In this document: piece by piece, positions 13,401 to 43,150 of the stretch
Position numbering within the stretch: position 1 is the stretch's first letter
Layout of the letters: each line of letters begins with the position of its first letter
Origin: Sinomonas notoginsengisoli
GTDB taxonomy: Bacteria > Actinomycetota > Actinomycetes > Actinomycetales > Micrococcaceae
Length of the DNA stretch: 64,000 nt
Direction of reading: 5' to 3'
NCBI RefSeq assembly: GCF_021554725.1
Contig: NZ_JAIZDP010000002.1
Span: 310,001-374,000 of the forward strand
Program-made: the position numbers and the translations under genes
Notes under the pieces: model-generated
The model's input: only the letters and a program-made list of their open reading frames with translations
Databases searched by the model: none
Told to the model about the DNA's origin: nothing

Positions 13401-13410
13401 TTATCCACAG
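13401..13410 (+). promoter_or_regulatory. DnaA-box-like site
   Basis: A perfect TTATCCACA (13401-13409) lies in the 363-base divergent gap between the deacetylase and arsR. Together with repeat copy B (13493-13531) it makes this gap rich in DnaA boxes, about 18 kb from dnaA. The rest of the gap holds the arsR promoter region and nothing else recognised. Confidence 0.5.
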
Positions 13411-13492
13411 CTGGGGACAATTGCGGGCAAGAATCGCCGCGGAGATGAACATTGCAGACGGGGACTGGTGAACAACGCGTGAACTACACCGC

Positions 13493-13531
13493 TGTAAGTT
13501 ACCCACACTGTGGACAACTGCTGTGGACAAC
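13493..13531 (+). repeat. TGTAAGTT/DnaA-box repeat, copy B
   Basis: Second copy of the motif described at 10919: TGTAAGTT, then ACCCACA inverted, then CTGTGGACAA and CTGTGGACAA direct. It aligns with copy A apart from one inserted base before the last box. It lies upstream of arsR. Confidence 0.7.
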
Positions 13532-13584
13532 AAGCCCTTGACGCGCGGAGCGCATTAGGCGTAGCTTGTATTCAATATATCAGT

Positions 13585-13605
13585 TGATCAAACGATCTTT
13601 TGATT
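13585..13605. promoter_or_regulatory. AT-rich inverted repeat upstream of arsR (candidate operator)
   Basis: TTGATCAAA and TTTGATTA face each other across about six bases, in an AT-rich stretch (13565-13620) that contrasts with the surrounding high GC. It lies 45-65 bases before the ArsR start, the usual place for autoregulation by ArsR proteins. Binding is inferred. Confidence 0.4.
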
Positions 13606-13650
13606 ACGATGTATTGATGTATCGAGCGGCCGGAAGGACCGAAGACGACC

Positions 13651-14055
13651 ATGAGCACCCCCGCCATCGAACAGGCCAGGGAAGAGGACCGGCTCAACCG
13701 CGCCTTCGCTGCCCTCTCCGACCCACTTCGGAGGCAGCTCGTGGCCCGTCTCGCCCTCGGAGACGCCACCGTCAATGAGCTCGCGGCACCGTTTGACGTG
13801 ACCCTGCAGGCTGTGTCCCGGCACCTCAAGGTGCTCCAGGGTGCGGGCCTCATCAGCCGCCGCCGCGACGCCCAGCGCCGACCCTGCCATCTCGAACCTG
13901 CCGCCTTCGGACCTCTCGGCGAATGGATCGAGACCTACCGCGAACGCACGGAGCAGAAGTACGGACGCCTCGACGCCGTCCTCGCCGAGGAGACACAACG
14001 CCGAACAGAACAAGACAAACGCCGAACAGAACAAGACAAGGGGAAGCAGCCATGA
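13651..14055 (+). CDS. ArsR-family winged-helix regulator
   Basis: A 134-residue regulator. It has the ArsR core ALSDPLRRQLVARLALGDATVNELA and recognition helix VTLQAVSRHLKVLQGAGL (~20-70), and no obvious Cys metal site, as in the subgroup paired with SRPBCC proteins. Its C-terminus carries two 7-residue repeats (RRTEQDK) from a 21-bp tandem duplication. The stop overlaps the next gene's ATG (ATGA), so the two are translationally coupled. It probably represses this two-gene operon. Confidence 0.9.
   Translation: MSTPAIEQAREEDRLNRAFAALSDPLRRQLVARLALGDATVNELAAPFDVTLQAVSRHLKVLQGAGLISRRRDAQRRPCHLEPAAFGPLGEWIETYRERTEQKYGRLDAVLAEETQRRTEQDKRRTEQDKGKQP
13999..14040 (+). repeat. Two tandem 21-bp repeats in the arsR 3' end
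   Basis: 13999-14019 and 14020-14040 are identical except for the last base. The duplication is in frame and adds seven residues to the ArsR tail. It is probably a recent slippage event. Confidence 0.9.
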
Positions 14056-14540
14056 GCACCACCCAGACCACCCGTGTAACGGCCGAGCCGGCCCTCCCGT
14101 TCGTGGACGTGGTCCGCGAGTTCAACGCCCCGGCCGAGCGCGTCTACCACGCACATACGGACCCAGCCCTCTACGCGCAGTGGGTGGGACCCGCGAAGTA
14201 CACCACGGCCATCGAACACTTCGATGCCCGGTCCGGCGGCGCCTACCGCTTCTCACAGACGGGTCCCGATGGTGAGCGATTCGCCTTCCACGGCTCCTTC
14301 CACGAGCTCACCGCACCGAGCCGCATGGTCCAGACCTTCGAGTTCGAGGGTGCCCCTGGGCACGTCTCCCTCGACATCTCGGAGATCGAGAACCTCGACG
14401 GCGGGCGGTGCCGTCTCACGGTGCACTCGACGTTCCAATCGGTCGAGGACCGCGACGCCATGCTCGCCGCGGGCATGACCGACGGCATGAACGAGGGCTA
14501 CGACCGCCTCGACGGAATCCTCGCCTCCGGCGCAGCGTAG
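14052..14540 (+). CDS. SRPBCC / AHSA1-like protein
   Basis: A 162-residue START-like fold protein of the activator-of-Hsp90-homology (SRPBCC) group. Typical features are VVREFNAPAERVYHAHTDPALYAQWVGP at the start, a GGAYRF strand and the C-terminal long helix with GMTDGMNEGYDRLDGIL. The family binds hydrophobic ligands in a deep pocket; its ligand here is unknown. The start at 14052 has GGGGAAG upstream and overlaps the arsR stop. ArsR-SRPBCC pairs are common in actinobacteria. Confidence 0.88.
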   Translation: MSTTQTTRVTAEPALPFVDVVREFNAPAERVYHAHTDPALYAQWVGPAKYTTAIEHFDARSGGAYRFSQTGPDGERFAFHGSFHELTAPSRMVQTFEFEGAPGHVSLDISEIENLDGGRCRLTVHSTFQSVEDRDAMLAAGMTDGMNEGYDRLDGILASGAA

Positions 14541-14690
14541 GCGGGGTGGCGCAACCGCGCCGATCCACAGCATCGAGGACAACGTTGTCCACAGCATGGG
14601 GACTTCTCGGTCCTGCGCCACGGGCTCCACGGTCTTCTTCCTATGCGATACGGCACGTGCGGCCTCACTACGCGTCAGTAAGTACAAGCC

Positions 14691-14729
14691 TGTAAGTTGT
14701 GCACAATGTGGAAAACCCCTGTGGAGAAC
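14691..14729 (+). repeat. TGTAAGTT/DnaA-box repeat, copy C
   Basis: Third copy: TGTAAGTTGTGCACA, ATGTGGAAAAC, CTGTGGAGAAC, with the same spacing as copy B but weaker boxes. Its last box is also the left arm of the downstream terminator hairpin. An earlier part of this 238-base convergent gap (14560-14595) has GATCCACAG and the dyad around AACGTTGTCCACAG. Confidence 0.6.
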
Positions 14730-31140: not shown

Positions 31141-31622
31141 GGACGCGTTCCGCCTTTCATCGCTGTCTCATGGCCGCGAGGGCGCACGTTCATGGGTGCC
31201 TGCTGAGAATCACACGGAAGTGGGCTCTCGGCAGACGCTGACCACAGCTTAGCCCTAGGGCTGGGTCCGGGCTCAACCCGGTTTGTGTAGTTGAGGCCTA
31301 CCTGAGGTGTTGGGAAGGGTCGTGGGATAGCTGGTGGCTAGAAATCTCATAATTCTTGGTATTGGTGGTGTTAATAACCGCTGTGGAAACTGTGGATAAC
31401 CGCTTCTGCCCGCGGACTCGCGCGGAAGTTGGCTGTTCACGCGGTGTTGATTCTCTGCGGACATCGTCAGGTGGCGCTGTGGACGCGTCATTCCGTGTGA
31501 TTCGTGCTCTCCACAGCGACGGATGGGTTGTCACCCCATCCGAGGAGGATGTGCACTTAACCATCCACAAGGTTGTCCACAAGCACCTGTTAATAAGGCA
31601 CGCATGCGCGAGGGCCGAGTGA
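31141..31622. other. oriC: Probable chromosomal origin of replication (oriC), dnaA-dnaN intergenic region
   Basis: 482 bases without a gene between dnaN and dnaA, the usual actinobacterial origin site. It contains a perfect DnaA box TGTGGATAA at 31391-31399, a weaker TGTGGAAAC just before it (31382), TTGTCCACA at 31573-31581, CCATCCACA at 31561-31569, and more CCACAG/TGTGGA elements at 31477 and 31508. An AT-rich stretch at 31340-31378 (TCATAATTCTTGG, TTAATAA) is a candidate unwinding element. Gene orientation changes at dnaA/rpmH, consistent with an origin here. Confidence 0.75.
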
Positions 31623-36837: not shown

Positions 36838-36910
36838 ACTACCTCGGTGGTGCTGATCCAGCGGCTAGTCTAGGGTGAGGCAATCGACGCGAATCGAGAG
36901 TGAGTTGACA

Positions 36911-37951
36911 GTGAGCAGTGGTGAGACGTCGGCCCAGAGAATTCCCCCTTTCTTGACACTCGGATCTGCACGTCCCGCTGCAGAGGAGAAGTCTGTGGCC
37001 GCCCCTCAACCGGCTCCTGTCACCCCGGCGGTGTCGGGCGCCGGGCCTCGCGGGGGCCAGTCCTTCCTCAAAACCCTCGATGAGGGAAGCCCCATTGCGA
37101 GTCAGCTGGCGAACGAGGCGCGACGGCGCGAGCGCCTGCAGGGACGCGAGCTCCGCCGGCCGGCATTGACCCGCGTGTTCACGGTGTCCAACCAGAAGGG
37201 CGGCGTCGGAAAGACGACCACCACGGTGAATATCGCAGCGGCCCTCGCGTCCGCTGGCCTCCAGGTGCTGGTCATCGACATCGATCCCCAGGGCAACGCT
37301 TCCACTGCACTCGGCATCGAGCACCACTCCGAGGTCGAGAGTATCTATGACGTGCTCATCAACGACGAGCCGCTCGCCGACGTCGTTGCCCAGTGTCCCG
37401 ACGTCGAGAACCTCGTGTGCGCTCCGGCGACCATCCACCTCGCCGGCGCCGAAATCGAGCTCGTCTCGCTCGTGGCGCGCGAGCAGCGGTTGCGCCGGGC
37501 GATCGACCACTATGCAACGGAGCGTGAGGAGGCCGGCCTTCCGCGGCTCGACTACATCTTCATCGACTGCCCGCCGAGCCTCGGGCTCCTGACCGTCAAC
37601 GCATTCTGCGCGGCGACGGAGGTCCTGATCCCGATCCAGTGCGAGTACTACGCGCTCGAGGGACTGAGCCAGCTCCTCAAGAACATCGAGATGATCCAGA
37701 AGCACCTCAATGCGGATCTCCGGGTATCCACGATCCTCTTGACGATGTACGACGGGCGCACAAACTTGGCCGCGCAGGTGGCAGCCGAGGTCCGCGAGCA
37801 CTTCCCGGAACAGGTTCTCGAAGCTGTTGTTCCGCGCTCAGTGCGAATCTCCGAGGCGCCCAGCTATCAGCAGACGGTGATGACCTACGATCCGACGTCG
37901 ACGGGTGCGTTGTCGTATCTCGAAGCTGCCGCGGAGATCGCGGAGCATTAG
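36911..37951 (+). CDS. parA: Chromosome partition ATPase ParA (Soj)
   Basis: A ~346-residue ParA with a ~85-residue disordered N-terminal extension, then the deviant Walker A KGGVGKTTTTVN, the Walker B region YIFIDCPPSLGLLT, and IPIQCEYYALEGLSQLL. It binds DNA non-specifically with ATP and, driven by ParB at parS, segregates origins. GTG 36911 is preferred because TAGTCT at 36866-36871 looks like a -10 box that would put the transcript start downstream of the alternative GTG at 36875. Confidence 0.96.
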   Translation: MSSGETSAQRIPPFLTLGSARPAAEEKSVAAPQPAPVTPAVSGAGPRGGQSFLKTLDEGSPIASQLANEARRRERLQGRELRRPALTRVFTVSNQKGGVGKTTTTVNIAAALASAGLQVLVIDIDPQGNASTALGIEHHSEVESIYDVLINDEPLADVVAQCPDVENLVCAPATIHLAGAEIELVSLVAREQRLRRAIDHYATEREEAGLPRLDYIFIDCPPSLGLLTVNAFCAATEVLIPIQCEYYALEGLSQLLKNIEMIQKHLNADLRVSTILLTMYDGRTNLAAQVAAEVREHFPEQVLEAVVPRSVRISEAPSYQQTVMTYDPTSTGALSYLEAAAEIAEH

Positions 37952-38026: not shown

Positions 38027-39232
38027 ATGAGCGAGAAGCGCCGAGGATTGGGCAGGGGTTTGGGAGCCCTCATCCCGAGCGCGGCCACAGCGGCCAGTGG
38101 CTCGGGGACGCCCTCGCGCCCGGTAGACCTGTTCTTCCCTGACTCCGGACGGAGCCCGGGCACAACCGACGAAGAGGCACGCGAAGCGGGCCAGTCGGAG
38201 GCCACGGAGGTGGGGGCCGCTCCGAACGCCGATGCCGCCCCAGGTCAGCCGACCTCGGCTCCCAACCAATCGGCGGTACCCGCTGAATCGGCCGATTCTG
38301 CTGCCCCGGAAACGCCATCCCTGGAGCGCACGGTTTCGCCCTCCTCTCGTGGCGCTCGTGGCGGGGGAACTCGCTCTCGCGCAACGCAGCGCGACACCGA
38401 CGATCTCGATCTGGTCGAGGTTCCCGGGGCACAATTCGCCGAGCTCAAGGTCGAGGACATCCATCCAAACCGGAAGCAGCCCCGTACTGCCTTCGATGAG
38501 GAGGAGATGGCCGAGCTCGTCCACTCCGTGCGCGAGATCGGCATCCTTCAACCAATCGTTGTCCGAAAGTCAACCGAATCTGGTAGTGAACGCTTTGAGC
38601 TTGTCATGGGTGAGCGGCGCTGGCGCGCCGCCAAGAAGGCGGGGCTCGACCTCATCCCTGCCATCATCCGTGACACCGGAGACGACGCTCTGCTCCGTGA
38701 TGCGCTGCTCGAGAACCTTCACCGGAGCCAGCTGAACCCGCTCGAAGAGGCTGCGGCTTACCAGCAGCTCCTCGACGACTTCGGAACGACCCACGAGGAG
38801 CTTGCCGACCGGATTGGCCGCTCGCGTCCGCAGGTCTCCAACACGATCCGCCTCCTGCGACTCCCTCCGTTGGTGCAGCGCCGTGTTGCGGCCGGCGTTC
38901 TCTCGGCGGGTCATGCTCGTGCTCTTCTGTCCTTACCGGACGATGCGGCGATAGAGCGCATGGCGCAGAAGATCGTTGCCGAAGGAATGTCTGTCCGTGC
39001 GACCGAAGAAGCGGTGACTCTCTACCAGGAACCGCAGGAGCCGCGGCGGTCAGCCTCCCGCAACAACGCCCGCCATGAGCGCCTCGACTTTCTCGCATCG
39101 ACCCTCGCGGATCGTCTCGATACGAACGTGAAGATTTCGCTCGGCGCACGCAAGGGCAAGGTAAGTATTGAGTTCGCTTCGGTTGAGGATCTCAACCGAA
39201 TCATGACGCTCATCAGCCCCGAAGAGGAGTGA
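38027..39232 (+). CDS. parB: Chromosome partition protein ParB
   Basis: A 401-residue CTP-dependent clamp. The N-terminal ~150 residues include the ParA-contacting segment [17 protein letters not shown] and a low-complexity linker. The CTPase has [22 protein letters not shown] and [14 protein letters not shown]. The HTH (~255-285) has [30 protein letters not shown]-terminal dimer domain follows. GGGAGG lies upstream of the ATG. Its target parS occurs five times in the 3.6 kb immediately downstream. Confidence 0.97.
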
Positions 39233-39267
39233 GGACCCCGTAGGTCTCCGCAATTGCGGCACTGAAC

Positions 39268-39310
39268 AAGCGGGATCTGTTCCACGTGGACAGATCCCGC
39301 TTCGTTTTTT
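39268..39310 (+). terminator. Rho-independent terminator of parAB
   Basis: AAGCGGGATCTGT pairs with ACAGATCCCGCTT, followed by CGTTTTTT, 36 bases after the parB stop. The loop TCCACGTGG, with its flanking bases, looks like a degenerate parS (TGTTCCACGTGGACA versus TGTTTCACGTGAAACA). Confidence 0.88.
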
Positions 39311-39438
39311 CTACACGTCCGCGCATGTTCCTAGTATTGGAGTATGGTTTCTGCCACCCCGTGGTGAAACCCGGGCGTGTCGACCTGAGGAGTGGACAGC
39401 AGGGAAGTACGCGCAGAGGCGGCCCACCTCGGGGCGCG

Positions 39439-39452
39439 GTTTCACGTGAAAC
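39439..39452. other. parS: parS site 1
   Basis: An exact GTTTCACGTGAAAC palindrome, the ParB-binding core, 207 bases after the parB stop. Confidence 0.95.
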
Positions 39453-40296
39453 GTGGATTGGGCTAGCCACTACGCCATCGGTCTGAACCGGCTTGGATTT
39501 CCCGGCGGGCGTGGAGCCAACTCCCGACGCCCGAAAGGTTCCACCACCGCCACGCCATGAGTTGCGTTGCTGGCGTTGACAACCTCACTGAAACCAAACC
39601 GTACAAAGTTGACCCAGGAACGACGTCGTGGGGTGACGCTTCAAGCTCGGCCGTGCGGCGAGCCACAATGCTCGCGATCGGACCAATCGCACTCTCAGGC
39701 CCCCTAGCCGTCGCACAGCTCTAGGAACGCAACCGGCGCTGCAGGACTGGCGGTCTCAACGGTCTGTAGCGCTCAGGTCCGCTTGCGATATCGGTTCTCC
39801 TGGTGAGCCACGTTTTGCGTTGGTCGTTTGCTCCGGACAATGGATCACTACCGGTGAAGATGAAGTAGAGGCTGGCCAACCGCGAGCGCGATCACGAAGA
39901 CAGGACCACGGTGTCCGGGCCCCGTTGTTCCACGCAAGGGATTGGCCGAGAAGGCCCTCAGCGTGTCGCTCGCGGCGGGGCTGGCGATGTTTACCCTAGG
40001 GGCAGGTGAAGTCGAGCTACGAGTGATGCCTAATGCCTCGAGGACGGTAGGACGTCGGGAGTGGGAGCATAGGGCCAGTTTCCACTTTCTCTGGTCATCG
40101 AGGCTACGGGGCGCGCGGCGGCAAAGGTTTGACACCAGGAGTTCTGACCGAAGCCGAGTTCGCCCGTCACGGTGATGCTGACGGGTCGCGGGTGCCGGTT
40201 ATCCCCGGAGGCGCGCAGGTCTTCATGCACGCTACCCGCACGGGGTCGATCACTCCGACCGGTTGCTTCGGGGAAGGGCGACCGGCCCTGTGCGGT

Positions 40297-40310
40297 GTTT
40301 CACGTGAAAC
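40297..40310. other. parS: parS site 2
   Basis: An exact GTTTCACGTGAAAC, preceded by T and followed by C, 858 bases from site 1. Confidence 0.95.
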
Positions 40311-40898
40311 CAGGCATGCACGGCCGGTGCACATTCTGACCCCCACGCCCGCGTGGGGCCGCGCGTAATGATCAGGCCGCCGTAAAACCGGGCAAGAGCC
40401 GACCGGAAACCCGTTGAGACGAGCAGCAACCCGGGTCTTTGACTTCCGAGCGTGGTGTGGGAGGACGGCCAGGAGGTCGGCTCACACGGCACGGGGAAGG
40501 CAGCAGTCCTCCTTCCTCGATCAGAAGGCTGGTGCCACTCGGTGCCGGAGCACGCTTCGAGAGCCGAAATGGCATGGGGCAAACGAGTATGCCCGTCGCG
40601 CCCGCCCCGTCTGAGCGCGTATCCCCATGAGGCCGGCAAGGCGACGCACACCGTCACCTCGTGGGCGGACTAGCTGGGACGGCGTTCTGAACAGGATGGC
40701 AATGCGCTCTGAGGTTGCCACCTGTTTCATCGGTTCCCGCCATCGCTTGTCTCGACCAGGCGGTACCAGATGAGATTGGCGCGCGGTGAAGGTCTGACGG
40801 GTTGTCTCCAGAGGGCGATAACTGCGCGGTTGACCACAATCGGAGCTTCCGGTTCGCCTTGGTCGCACTGAGCAGCGTGCGGCGGGCGCAGAGCCGCC

Positions 40899-40952
40899 TG
40901 TGGATAAGTTCTGTCGGTGTGACGCTCGAGCCGGGATGTGGCCTGTGGATAA
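40899..40952 (+). promoter_or_regulatory. Two perfect DnaA boxes in the parS region
   Basis: TGTGGATAA occurs at 40899-40907 and 40944-40952, same orientation, 45 bases apart (about four helical turns). Both are exact reverse complements of TTATCCACA. There is no gene nearby. Confidence 0.65.
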
Positions 40953-41330
40953 CCGTGTGGGGAAGCGAACTGGATACGCTGGCGGGGGGACGAAGTCCGG
41001 CCCTAGTTTGTGTTGGTGCCACAGGTAGCATCTTGCCGATATCGTCAAGCAAGAAGGATCAGCCCGTGCGAGGGAGATGCTGTCTGTGTGCTGCCGGATT
41101 CGGACCTAGGATGGAGCCTGCAAAGAAACTACTGCTTTTGGTTCCTTTCTGCGCAGCATCATCCAATCGGCGCGCTGGACGCGTGGATTTGCGACATGTA
41201 TGTGCACTTGCCGCCGGGCCATCCTGAGACGATCGTACTCTCCGACGCCCCGAGTCGGATGGGACTGGTGATGGGCACCGGCAAAGGGTGCCCCGAAGTG
41301 AGACGATGCCCCGCGCCTGCGAAAGTCCGC

Positions 41331-41364
41331 TGTGGATAGCCGCTGTGGATTTCCCTGTGGATAT
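41331..41364 (+). promoter_or_regulatory. Three tandem DnaA-box-like sites
   Basis: TGTGGATAG (41331), TGTGGATTT (41344) and TGTGGATAT (41356) are in the same orientation, 12-13 bases apart. Each differs by one or two bases from the consensus. The phasing resembles DnaA-binding arrays. Confidence 0.6.
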
Positions 41365-41647
41365 CGTTCGGGCGGTGCTACTGCTGCTTCCATCCGAAAC
41401 TGCCCCGTAACCTGCGGGGTGGATTCGGGCCCTGAGAGGTTACATTGCTTCCGAAACCACCAGACGTGCTGTCCTGGCCGTTCCAAGTGTTGAGCTGGAC
41501 CGGGTCAAGCGACAACGCTCATTCTTGCGGCAGTTTTGACTGCGAAGAACAGCGGGCCGTCTTAGACACCCACCTTCCTTGGCGGGGCGGTTAGGCCTCG
41601 TCACCCCAGATAGAGCGCTGCTCCGCCCAGCCGGGATAGCGGACTGT

Positions 41648-41661
41648 GTTTCACGTGAAAC
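41648..41661. other. parS: parS site 3
   Basis: An exact GTTTCACGTGAAAC, 1351 bases from site 2. Confidence 0.95.
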
Positions 41662-41842
41662 CCCCAAAGGGGAAGGTCGCAACCTGCCAAAGGGTGCAGC
41701 CTGACCAACCTCATCGTTGGGTTCTCCCCGCGCCTACGGAAGCGGCGCCTAAAGAGGGAGCAGTACCCGCCCATGAGGACCGCTCCCTCGCTACACGCCG
41801 CGGCGCCCACACCGTCGCTGCGCGCAGGTACGCTACCTTTGT

Positions 41843-41856
41843 GTTTCACGTGAAAC
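41843..41856. other. parS: parS site 4
   Basis: The perfect 16-base form TGTTTCACGTGAAACA lies at 41842-41857, 195 bases from site 3. This pair is the densest part of the array. Confidence 0.96.
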
Positions 41857-42546
41857 ACGCATGAACGACGTATCGCTTAGTGTCCTGTTGTCGTGCCTTC
41901 GCCGGCCAAGATTTGTGCTGAGTGGTGCGCTTGGCCGTCGGCGTTCGTCGATCATCGAATCTCGTCGATCGTCGCCGGTCAGGAGCATGTTTTGGGGAGG
42001 GCGTGCGACGCCGCTACGCTCCGGCTCTGCTCCTCTGACACGAACGGAGGCGCCGCGGGCCACCGGCCAGGCACACCCGTGCCTGTTGTACAAAATCGAC
42101 GAAATTGATGTTTTCGTTTGTGGAAATGGGAGTGGGGCCGCAAGGACGGTTGACTTGCCACGCGCCGTCGAACCATTGGCTACGGCACGAGATGGAGGGC
42201 GCTAGGCGTAGGCCTCCTTCGCGCACACCAGCTGGCCACGGGCGCGGCTATATGGGTGACGGCCCGGGAACCGCGTTGACACCGGCGAAGCGCGTGAACT
42301 TCCGTTGCGTCCCGCATAGGTGAGGAAACGGGGTTCGGCGACCAAATGATGATGTGGGCGCCGAAGGAAGGAGGCCGTCTGATTCACGGCTCTACACGGG
42401 GGGCGGCAGGGTTTTACGGGTCTCGCGGGGTAGCCTTCCGACTCCCTAGCGCGGTTCGTTGGGCCGCGGAGATTAGCTTTGTCGTCATCATCCGGCGGAG
42501 ATGGGCTTCGCAATCTCGAACAACAACAACTGCTTATCAGATCGGA

Positions 42547-42570
42547 TTCGTGTGAGATTTCGTGTGAGAT
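42547..42570 (+). repeat. 12-bp tandem repeat
   Basis: Two perfect copies of TTCGTGTGAGAT at 42547-42558 and 42559-42570, within the gene-poor region. Confidence 0.85.
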
Positions 42571-42686
42571 TGGGTGGCCCGGCCGGTCTGCTATCGGAAT
42601 TGAAGCCAAGTTTGGAAGGGCCGGCCACGTTGCCACGATCTGTGGGGAGCTTCTGAGCGCGGACCCGTGAAGCGCGGAGCCCAGCT

Positions 42687-42700
42687 GTTTCACGTGAAAC
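42687..42700. other. parS: parS site 5
   Basis: An exact GTTTCACGTGAAAC, 844 bases from site 4 and just beyond the trxA terminator. Confidence 0.95.
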
Positions 42701-42734
42701 GCTCAAACGTCGGCCGAGATCGTGACACCCTCGA

Positions 42735-42780
42735 AGAACAAAAGGAACGGGGAGGGTGCGACATCGTCGCACCCTCCCCG
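42735..42780 (-). terminator. Terminator of trxBA
   Basis: CGGGGAGGGTGCGA pairs with TCGCACCCTCCCCG around CATCG. On the minus strand it is followed by a T-containing stretch (TTCCTTTTGTTC). It lies 41 bases beyond the trxA stop. Confidence 0.85.
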
Positions 42781-42820
42781 GGACTGTGGCCCATTGCCAG
42801 GTTTGATCCCCGGTTAGCCT

Positions 42821-43150
42821 CTACTTCGCGAGGACCTCGTTCCATTCCTTCTCGAAGTACTGCTTCGGACGAGCGCCGATAACTGTTCCAGTCACCTTTC
42901 CCTTCTCAAAAAGGTAGACCGCCGGAATTGACGTGATTCCATACTCAGCCGCGATGTTCGGGTTGTTGTCCACGTCGACCTTGACCACGTCTACCTGATC
43001 CGCGTATTCGACGGAGATGTCGTCCAGGATCGGCCCGACCTTGCGGCACGGCCCGCACCACTCGGCCCAAAAGTCAACAATGACTGGCTTCTCGGACATG
43101 AGGACCTTGTCGGTGAACTCAGCATCGGTGACATTCTTGGCATTGCTCAT
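42821..43150 (-). CDS. trxA: Thioredoxin
   Basis: A 109-residue thioredoxin with active site WCGPC (Cys32, Cys35) and the cis-proline in SIPAVYLF. It reduces protein disulfides in the cytoplasm and is itself recycled by TrxB, encoded 26 bases upstream in the same operon. Confidence 0.98.
   Translation of the reverse strand: MSNAKNVTDAEFTDKVLMSEKPVIVDFWAEWCGPCRKVGPILDDISVEYADQVDVVKVDVDNNPNIAAEYGITSIPAVYLFEKGKVTGTVIGARPKQYFEKEWNEVLAK

Follow-up and report, generated by a model that had tools for sequence, protein, structure and literature searches.

The DNA analysed here, called the window, is a stretch of 64,000 nucleotides from Sinomonas notoginsengisoli (G000:C12:310001-374000), whose assembly comprises 3,591,712 bases (3.59 Mb) in 32 contigs. 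The window is a standard actinobacterial origin region, in which the minus-strand genes gyrB, recF, dnaN and dnaA are followed by plus-strand yidC, jag, rsmG, parA and parB and then, again in minus orientation, by trxA and trxB. This study concerns the gap of 3,588 bp between the parB stop (39232) and the end of trxA (42821), in which five parS sites and an array of predicted DnaA boxes were found. The sequence features of the gap and its conservation among relatives make its reading as a centromere well supported. The parS array lies approximately 8-11 kb from the dnaN-dnaA intergenic region, which is likely to be the main oriC and has an AT-rich stretch next to DnaA boxes. The names parA, parB, trxA, trxB, dnaA and dnaN were assigned with Pfam, and the remaining gene names were read by eye from the sequence. 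The closest named relative by ParB score was Sinomonas cellulolyticus, with 76% identity.

Five parS sites in a gap without recognisable genes

An initial annotation, made from the sequence alone, had listed five exact palindromes in this interval. All five were recovered as exact parS sites (GTTTCACGTGAAAC) within 3.3 kb, adjoining parA and parB (Table 1). When up to three mismatches were allowed, seven parS matches were found in the window against 1.09 expected, a number which was reached in none of 100 shuffles. In the whole assembly, a search allowing at most one mismatch returned the same five sites in the gap and no others. The spacers had been described as not obviously repetitive and not the result of simple duplication, and this was confirmed, with only short, mostly two-copy repeats present beyond parS. 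Duplication of a parS unit was rejected as the source of the array because the repeats reach little past the palindromes. A role of parS spacing as a ruler was also rejected, as the excess of evenness was slight and the relatives compared are not independent. The hairpin behind parB (39268-39302) includes a part-parS-like sequence, TTCCACGTGGA, and parS variants with one changed base recur in other gaps.

Codon-position periodicity, calculated in 300-bp segments as the GC difference between codon positions, had a mean of 0.083 in the gap (33 segments), compared with 0.081 in shuffles and 0.323 outside the gap (216 segments between 24.8 and 50.3 kb of the window). The gap formed the longest aperiodic run in the 263,868 contig bases examined (3,950 bp), the next longest being 1,500 bp. 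Forty-eight stop-to-stop open reading frames (ORFs) of at least 60 amino acids overlap the gap. The 20 longest of these, leaving aside one of 102 amino acids located mostly within parB, were scanned against Pfam and gave no match above the cut-off; the single weak match below it was to MsrA_helical (E 0.053). A scan with Rfam detected no family within the gap. The earlier statement that the interval contains no real gene was thus upheld, and decayed genes were rejected as an explanation of the gap on the same grounds and for want of any cwlM relic (see below). Sigma-70-like promoters were absent from the gap region, where 0.7 were expected, in a scan limited to that promoter type, and a terminator-like hairpin points into the gap from each end.

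Conservation of the slot and turnover of the spacers

The slot between parB and trxA was compared in a set of 80 loci, from which seven were dropped because no trx gene was present downstream and one (L075) because it gave no trxA hit. Gaps shorter than 1.5 kb and the outgroups, which were hand-picked, were excluded from the word, skew, cluster-layout and hairpin counts. L090 was omitted from these counts and from those of box orientation, position and distance, parS spacing, AT content and parS-to-box distance. Some genomes were sampled twice (L023/L163, which share the same best tblastn match, and L062/L162), and among the gaps bearing the DnaA-box module described below only L090 and L091 are near-identical.

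A convergent parB/trxA gap of 3,052-6,742 bp with 4-7 parS sites was present in all 15 genomes of the genus, S. notoginsengisoli included, and in L001. When the window gap was compared by blastn with 15 relatives, 32 bp (41330-41361) were shared with one of them and nothing with the other 14, whereas in the same relatives the alignments covered 67-82% of parB and 99-100% of trxAB, with identities of 75-83%. Only three of 990 pairs of module-bearing gaps aligned over more than 10%, namely the near-duplicate pair L090/L091, one pair of genus g19, and L018/L085. The comparison with the same slot in related genomes had been proposed in the initial annotation, which expected conserved parS and non-conserved spacers in a true bacterial centromere. 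This is the pattern that was found: the slot, the convergent genes and parS are kept, the spacers lose nearly all alignable similarity, and the suggestion of a centromere is strengthened by it.

In the pair L090/L091, the substitution rate was 0.0198 in the gap, compared with 0.0099 and 0.0127 in the flanking genes, and all six parS sites were kept. Third codon positions differed at 27 of 1174 sites (0.023) and fourfold sites at 21 of 686 (0.031), which places the spacer divergence at or slightly below the synonymous rate. On this comparison the spacers look neutral, and at the distance between species they are presumably saturated.

At least one parS site was present in the slot of 26 of 31 representatives of other genera in the family. 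A parS-bearing slot of at least 1 kb was found in 18 of the 31, some of these being partly coding; such slots are common in the family, which had been overlooked. Slot length among the representatives ranged from 70 bp to 14.3 kb, in some cases with coding signal. Several farther outgroups (for example a Cellulomonas and a Demequina) had coding genes and no parS in the slot, and others had a short slot. Among 50 family gaps of at least 1.5 kb that were scanned with a stricter script, 25 had an inward-pointing hairpin next to parB and 27 had one next to trxA; the corresponding numbers for a control position were 1 and 0, again among 50. Among the hairpin evidence, only this comparison and the two 15-bp stems of the window gap stand out.

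The parS gap of one congener contains an ORF for a DDE transposase (PF01609; L085:3513-5165), from which it appears that insertions are tolerated there. The L018 gap aligns to this gap over 15% at 73% identity, perhaps through a related insert. Two loci of genus g24 (L136 and L161) have parB-trxA slots of 14.3 and 15.2 kb which are partly coding, with parS spread over several kb and no exact DnaA boxes.

An oriented array of DnaA boxes

Two clusters of DnaA boxes, A and B, which had also been overlooked, are located between parS 2 and parS 3 (Table 1). The genome harbours 18 exact DnaA boxes, and the pair in cluster A are the only ones less than 7 kb apart. The tandem form of the box occurs three times in the genome. 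Two of these occurrences are in the gap, and the third, 45 kb from it, precedes a dnaB-like gene. Cluster B overlaps the sole blastn match of the gap to the 15 relatives.

After parS had been masked in 50 gaps (237,454 bases), DnaA boxes showed the strongest enrichment of all words, and the top-ranked words recurring between species were, with few exceptions, DnaA boxes or parS variants. Exact boxes (TGTGGATAA) were found 103 times on the parB strand in 44 gaps, those of the genera with the handles g1, g9 and g19 and of named Arthrobacter-type records, for which chance predicts 0.80 on both strands together. None was found on the other strand in 101 gaps, outgroups and short gaps included. Boxes with one mismatch followed the same orientation (135 vs 11). 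Of the 107 distances below 60 bp between neighbouring boxes, 63 were 12 or 13 bp. The median position of the boxes was 0.470 of the gap length, with a standard deviation of 0.062, where uniform placing would give 0.285. The usual layout was of two clusters approximately 310-450 bp apart, and a single box was present in only 2 of 35 gaps. In Arthrobacter-type gaps, the first cluster consists of a strong box between two weaker ones, with little else kept nearby but parS. A parS site follows the first box after 104-150 bp in 21 of 26 gaps of the Arthrobacter/g9 type, and after exactly 116 bp in six.

With holder status defined by exact boxes only, and 3 of 17 extra regions set aside because they lack parB, the module was present in 16 of 16 loci when L001 is counted with the genus, in 7 of 7 sampled for g9 and in 4 of 4 for g19. 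Named records of Arthrobacter, Pseudarthrobacter and Paenarthrobacter, outside the handle-genus assignment, also hold boxes. In a tree of four proteins, the 15 included holders fell into one clade of 21 leaves (support 1.0). Because six leaves of this clade lack exact boxes, one gain followed by losses and two gains both fit.

Boxes were observed at two further places around this origin. The interval 13401-14728 of the window, intergenic around two small plus-strand ORFs and located across oriC from the gap at approximately 18 kb, has DnaA-box-like sites in both orientations, one exact and the others with one mismatch; some congeners have tandem boxes at a similar distance. A cluster directly upstream of the dnaB-like ORF, which was named by eye, is located approximately 45 kb beyond the gap (L104:2480-2650; G000:C12 about 396480), and in many congeners a tandem pair is found 44 to approximately 99 kb from their gap.

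Table 1. Features of the parB-trxA gap and its surroundings (window coordinates).
Feature	Position	Strand	Basis
Gene-free zone between convergent parB and trxA	39233..42820	.	No codon periodicity; no Pfam match above cut-off (20 ORFs); no Rfam family; slot in 15/15 genus genomes
parS 1, exact palindrome	39439..39452	.	Motif search
parS 2, exact palindrome	40297..40310	.	Motif search
parS 3, exact palindrome	41648..41661	.	Motif search
parS 4, exact palindrome	41843..41856	.	Motif search
parS 5, exact palindrome	42687..42700	.	Motif search
DnaA-box cluster A: exact TTATCCACA boxes at 40899 and 40944 (45 bp apart), both facing the same way	40899..40952	-	Closest exact pair in genome
DnaA-box cluster B: three head-to-tail weaker boxes (41331, 41344, 41356), 13- and 12-bp spacing	41331..41364	-	Sequence scan
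Terminator-like hairpin behind parB, pointing into gap, 15-bp stem	39268..39302	+	Sequence scan
Terminator-like hairpin behind trxA, pointing into gap, 15-bp stem	42748..42780	-	Sequence scan
parA	36875..37951	+	AAA_31 1.9e-57
parB	38027..39232	+	ParB_N, HTH_ParB, ParB_C
trxA, right border of slot	42821..43150	-	Thioredoxin 4.1e-30
dnaN-dnaA intergenic region, likely main oriC	31141..31622	.	AT-rich stretch beside DnaA boxes; dnaA and dnaN domains

Absence of cwlM

The initial annotation had remarked on a missing cwlM and suggested that the stretch replaced or outlived genes. Amidase_3 (PF01520) was absent from the whole genome of S. notoginsengisoli in a search that gave matches in 8 of 14 control genomes. 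The sister-genus representatives were searched as well (30 of the 31, G029 being omitted). In five, an Amidase_3 gene lies within the parB-trxA slot, always 0.58-0.71 kb from trxA, and PF01520 was not found in the other 25. Comparison of these five proteins with 88 gaps by tblastn detected relatives in seven (one genome twice; four outgroups) and gave no match in the window gap, which contains no cwlM relic. In the genera that keep cwlM, parS sites are also present on its parB side, and the ancestral order was likely parB - parS zone - cwlM - trxA. Since five of the 30 representatives keep the gene in the slot, this lineage probably lost cwlM from the gap without trace. To that extent the stretch may have outlived a gene; the replacement of cwlM by the parS array was rejected, because the two stand side by side in the genera that have both.

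Proposed function of the gap

The explanation favoured here, which on the sequence evidence we judge a little likelier to be right than wrong, is that the gap is a centromere with neutral spacers and, embedded in it, an initiator-binding array through which segregation, or the availability of DnaA, is coupled to initiation. ParB clamps load at parS and slide. In the gap, ParB from the neighbouring gene would load as clamps on the five parS sites and slide over 3.6 kb of DNA without recognisable genes, which may be little transcribed in view of the two terminator-like hairpins and the absence of promoter-like sites. The spacers would be neutral filler, while the slot, the parS sites and the mid-gap DnaA module would be kept. 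An oriented DnaA multimer is favoured where strong boxes have weak neighbours at intervals of 12-13 bp, all facing the same way. DnaA may bind the module in this form, on strong boxes with weaker ones every 12-13 bp, divided between two clusters that are separated by a few hundred bp. The module is approximately 9.5 kb from the presumed oriC and would therefore be duplicated very shortly after replication starts. On the module, DnaA might either draw active DnaA away from oriC or inform the ParB/ParA complex that replication has started anew; the coupling to segregation is the more likely of the two, because the module sits inside the parS array.

A composite of centromere and initiator-binding site is a more tentative reading. 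The DnaA array would then be a DnaA-responsive switch which licenses ParB/ParA segregation at initiation, and several kb of sequence-neutral, gene-free DNA would be selected as a loading ground for ParB. This reading draws on the distance between parS and array in the Arthrobacter group, which is near-constant and often 116 bp, or approximately 11 helical turns.

Several observations weigh against a centromere of the favoured kind. RNA polymerase is reported to cross ParB condensates in vitro without much effect (PMC10681803), which weakens a strict need for a gene-free centromere. A loose tool counted 4 terminator-like sites in the region, compared with 3.8 in shuffles, and approximately half of the family gaps have no hairpin at either given end. 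The evenness of parS spacing barely exceeded chance (mean percentile 0.391 in 53 gaps) and the correlation between parS number and gap length was only 0.16, so that no selection on spacer length is demonstrated. In the genus itself, the parS-to-box distance is not near-fixed and no parS site lies between the clusters. No exact DnaA box was present in the slot of 29 of the 31 sister-genus representatives, so that parS function does not depend on the module. Clusters of DnaA boxes are also found elsewhere near this origin. Finally, the relatives are not independent, and the counts given here are not probabilities.

Alternative explanations

It is possible, though unlikely, that the parS sites are the centromere and the DnaA array is a separate reservoir or inactivation site for DnaA, similar to datA or to the DnaA-box clusters of other bacteria, and came to lie by chance in gene-free DNA near oriC. 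The box clusters at other intergenic places, both at 13401-14728 and upstream of the dnaB-like gene, fit such a site, as does the lack of a fixed distance between boxes and parS in the genus. Within the window, the gap also has more exact boxes (2) than the dnaN-dnaA region (1). This relation is reversed in L007, L009, L012 and L013, where the gap has one exact box and the dnaN-dnaA region two. Chance placement is also at odds with the narrow distribution of the array around the gap middle, and with the parS site at 104-150 bp in most Arthrobacter-type gaps, where the DNA between is not conserved.

The gap could also be a passive graveyard, in which cwlM was lost, deletion is risky because of parS, and insertions and decay turn over the rest, so that the lack of genes has no function. 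The slot position of cwlM in five sister-genus representatives and its disappearance here are consistent with this, and so are the spacer divergence in the one close pair, the transposase gene in the gap of a congener, the wide range of gap lengths in the family and the near-random spacing of parS. This explanation is nevertheless held to be unlikely. Bacteria usually delete useless DNA, and yet at least 3 kb is kept in every one of the 15 genus genomes. Neither a cwlM relic nor coding remnants were found in the window gap, and the DnaA module is present in every sampled genome of the three handle genera. The chief competing explanation is a DnaA sink in the case of the array and the graveyard in the case of the spacers; the two are compatible and can both hold, and their probabilities overlap.

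A further candidate was the array as a replication origin, either alternative or former. Its boxes, strong and weak, share one orientation and form two clusters, and an array of DnaA boxes is one of the marks of an oriC. The middle of the module was slightly AT-richer (0.434 vs 0.382, higher in 38 of 42 modules, those with boxes spanning less than 250 bp being left out), in a middle window which was chosen after most of the data had been seen. Against this, the GC skew of the parB strand was positive both to the left of the array (32 of 35 gaps) and to its right (35 of 35). As the skew does not switch there, the gap array is probably not the oriC, and this candidate was rejected; a present or past origin function is regarded as very improbable. 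In the 263,868 contig bases, the cumulative skew fell to a minimum at 22.7 kb of the window, left of dnaA, and rose after it, and the dnaN-dnaA region has the AT-rich stretch beside its boxes. The skew is weak in the genus, and its minimum is located some 8 kb left of dnaN-dnaA and not on it; in G121, the skew over 280 kb had no clear minimum at the origin. That the gap encodes small proteins so far unrecognised, or some non-coding RNA, is just as improbable: the 48 ORFs, a raw count, stand against a periodicity equal to that of shuffles, the Pfam and Rfam negatives, the lack of sigma-70-like promoters in a scan for that type, and top-ranked recurrent words that, with few exceptions, belong to DnaA boxes or parS variants.

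Comparison with known systems

datA, DARS and other groups of DnaA boxes outside oriC are clusters in non-coding DNA, and the array described here is likewise a DnaA-box cluster outside the likely oriC in non-coding DNA. It differs from them in being embedded among parS sites, with boxes arranged head-to-tail in two clusters.

Clusters of parS and centromeres that bind an initiator are already known. In Corynebacterium glutamicum, also an actinobacterium, many identical parS sites form a cluster on one side of oriC, nine of the ten being intergenic, but they extend over 35 kb at 73 kb from oriC, and no DnaA array is mentioned in the available part of that report (PMC7083940). The rctA/parS2 region of Vibrio cholerae chromosome II is a centromere which, like the gap, also holds sites for the initiator of its own replicon; that initiator is RctB and not DnaA, and the sites act on a plasmid-like origin (PMC6399470).

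The likeness to Caulobacter crescentus is found in two features. The parS cluster is close to the origin, at a distance of a few kb (8 kb in Caulobacter, PMC6667618; approximately 8-11 kb here), and DnaA boxes, here predicted ones, are located inside the centromere. In Caulobacter, according to a review (PMC6399470), DnaA binds the parS region (Mera et al. 2014) and triggers segregation. The parS sites of that species lie in essential or fitness genes (PMC5815017), in contrast to the gene-free zone of the present locus, which is in another phylum, has an oriented two-cluster array, and in which DnaA binding is a prediction. Among open-access reports, as far as titles and abstract openings tell, none was found of a parS zone that is gene-free and neutral in sequence and that carries, in at least three genera, an oriented DnaA array near its middle.

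How the start of segregation is tied to the start of replication is an open question in most bacterial groups. The turnover of sequence around kept parS sites, a kept DnaA array and an empty slot amounts to a natural experiment by evolution, and the gap would exemplify, for bacteria, a centromere that a few sites define while the surrounding DNA changes rapidly. Its elements (module, parS, spacer) are short and removable and belong to harmless soil bacteria, which would permit direct tests of a coupling between DnaA and the centromere and of a gene-free loading ground for ParB. If the composite reading were true, the gap would be an independent actinobacterial counterpart of the Caulobacter and Vibrio chromosome II systems.

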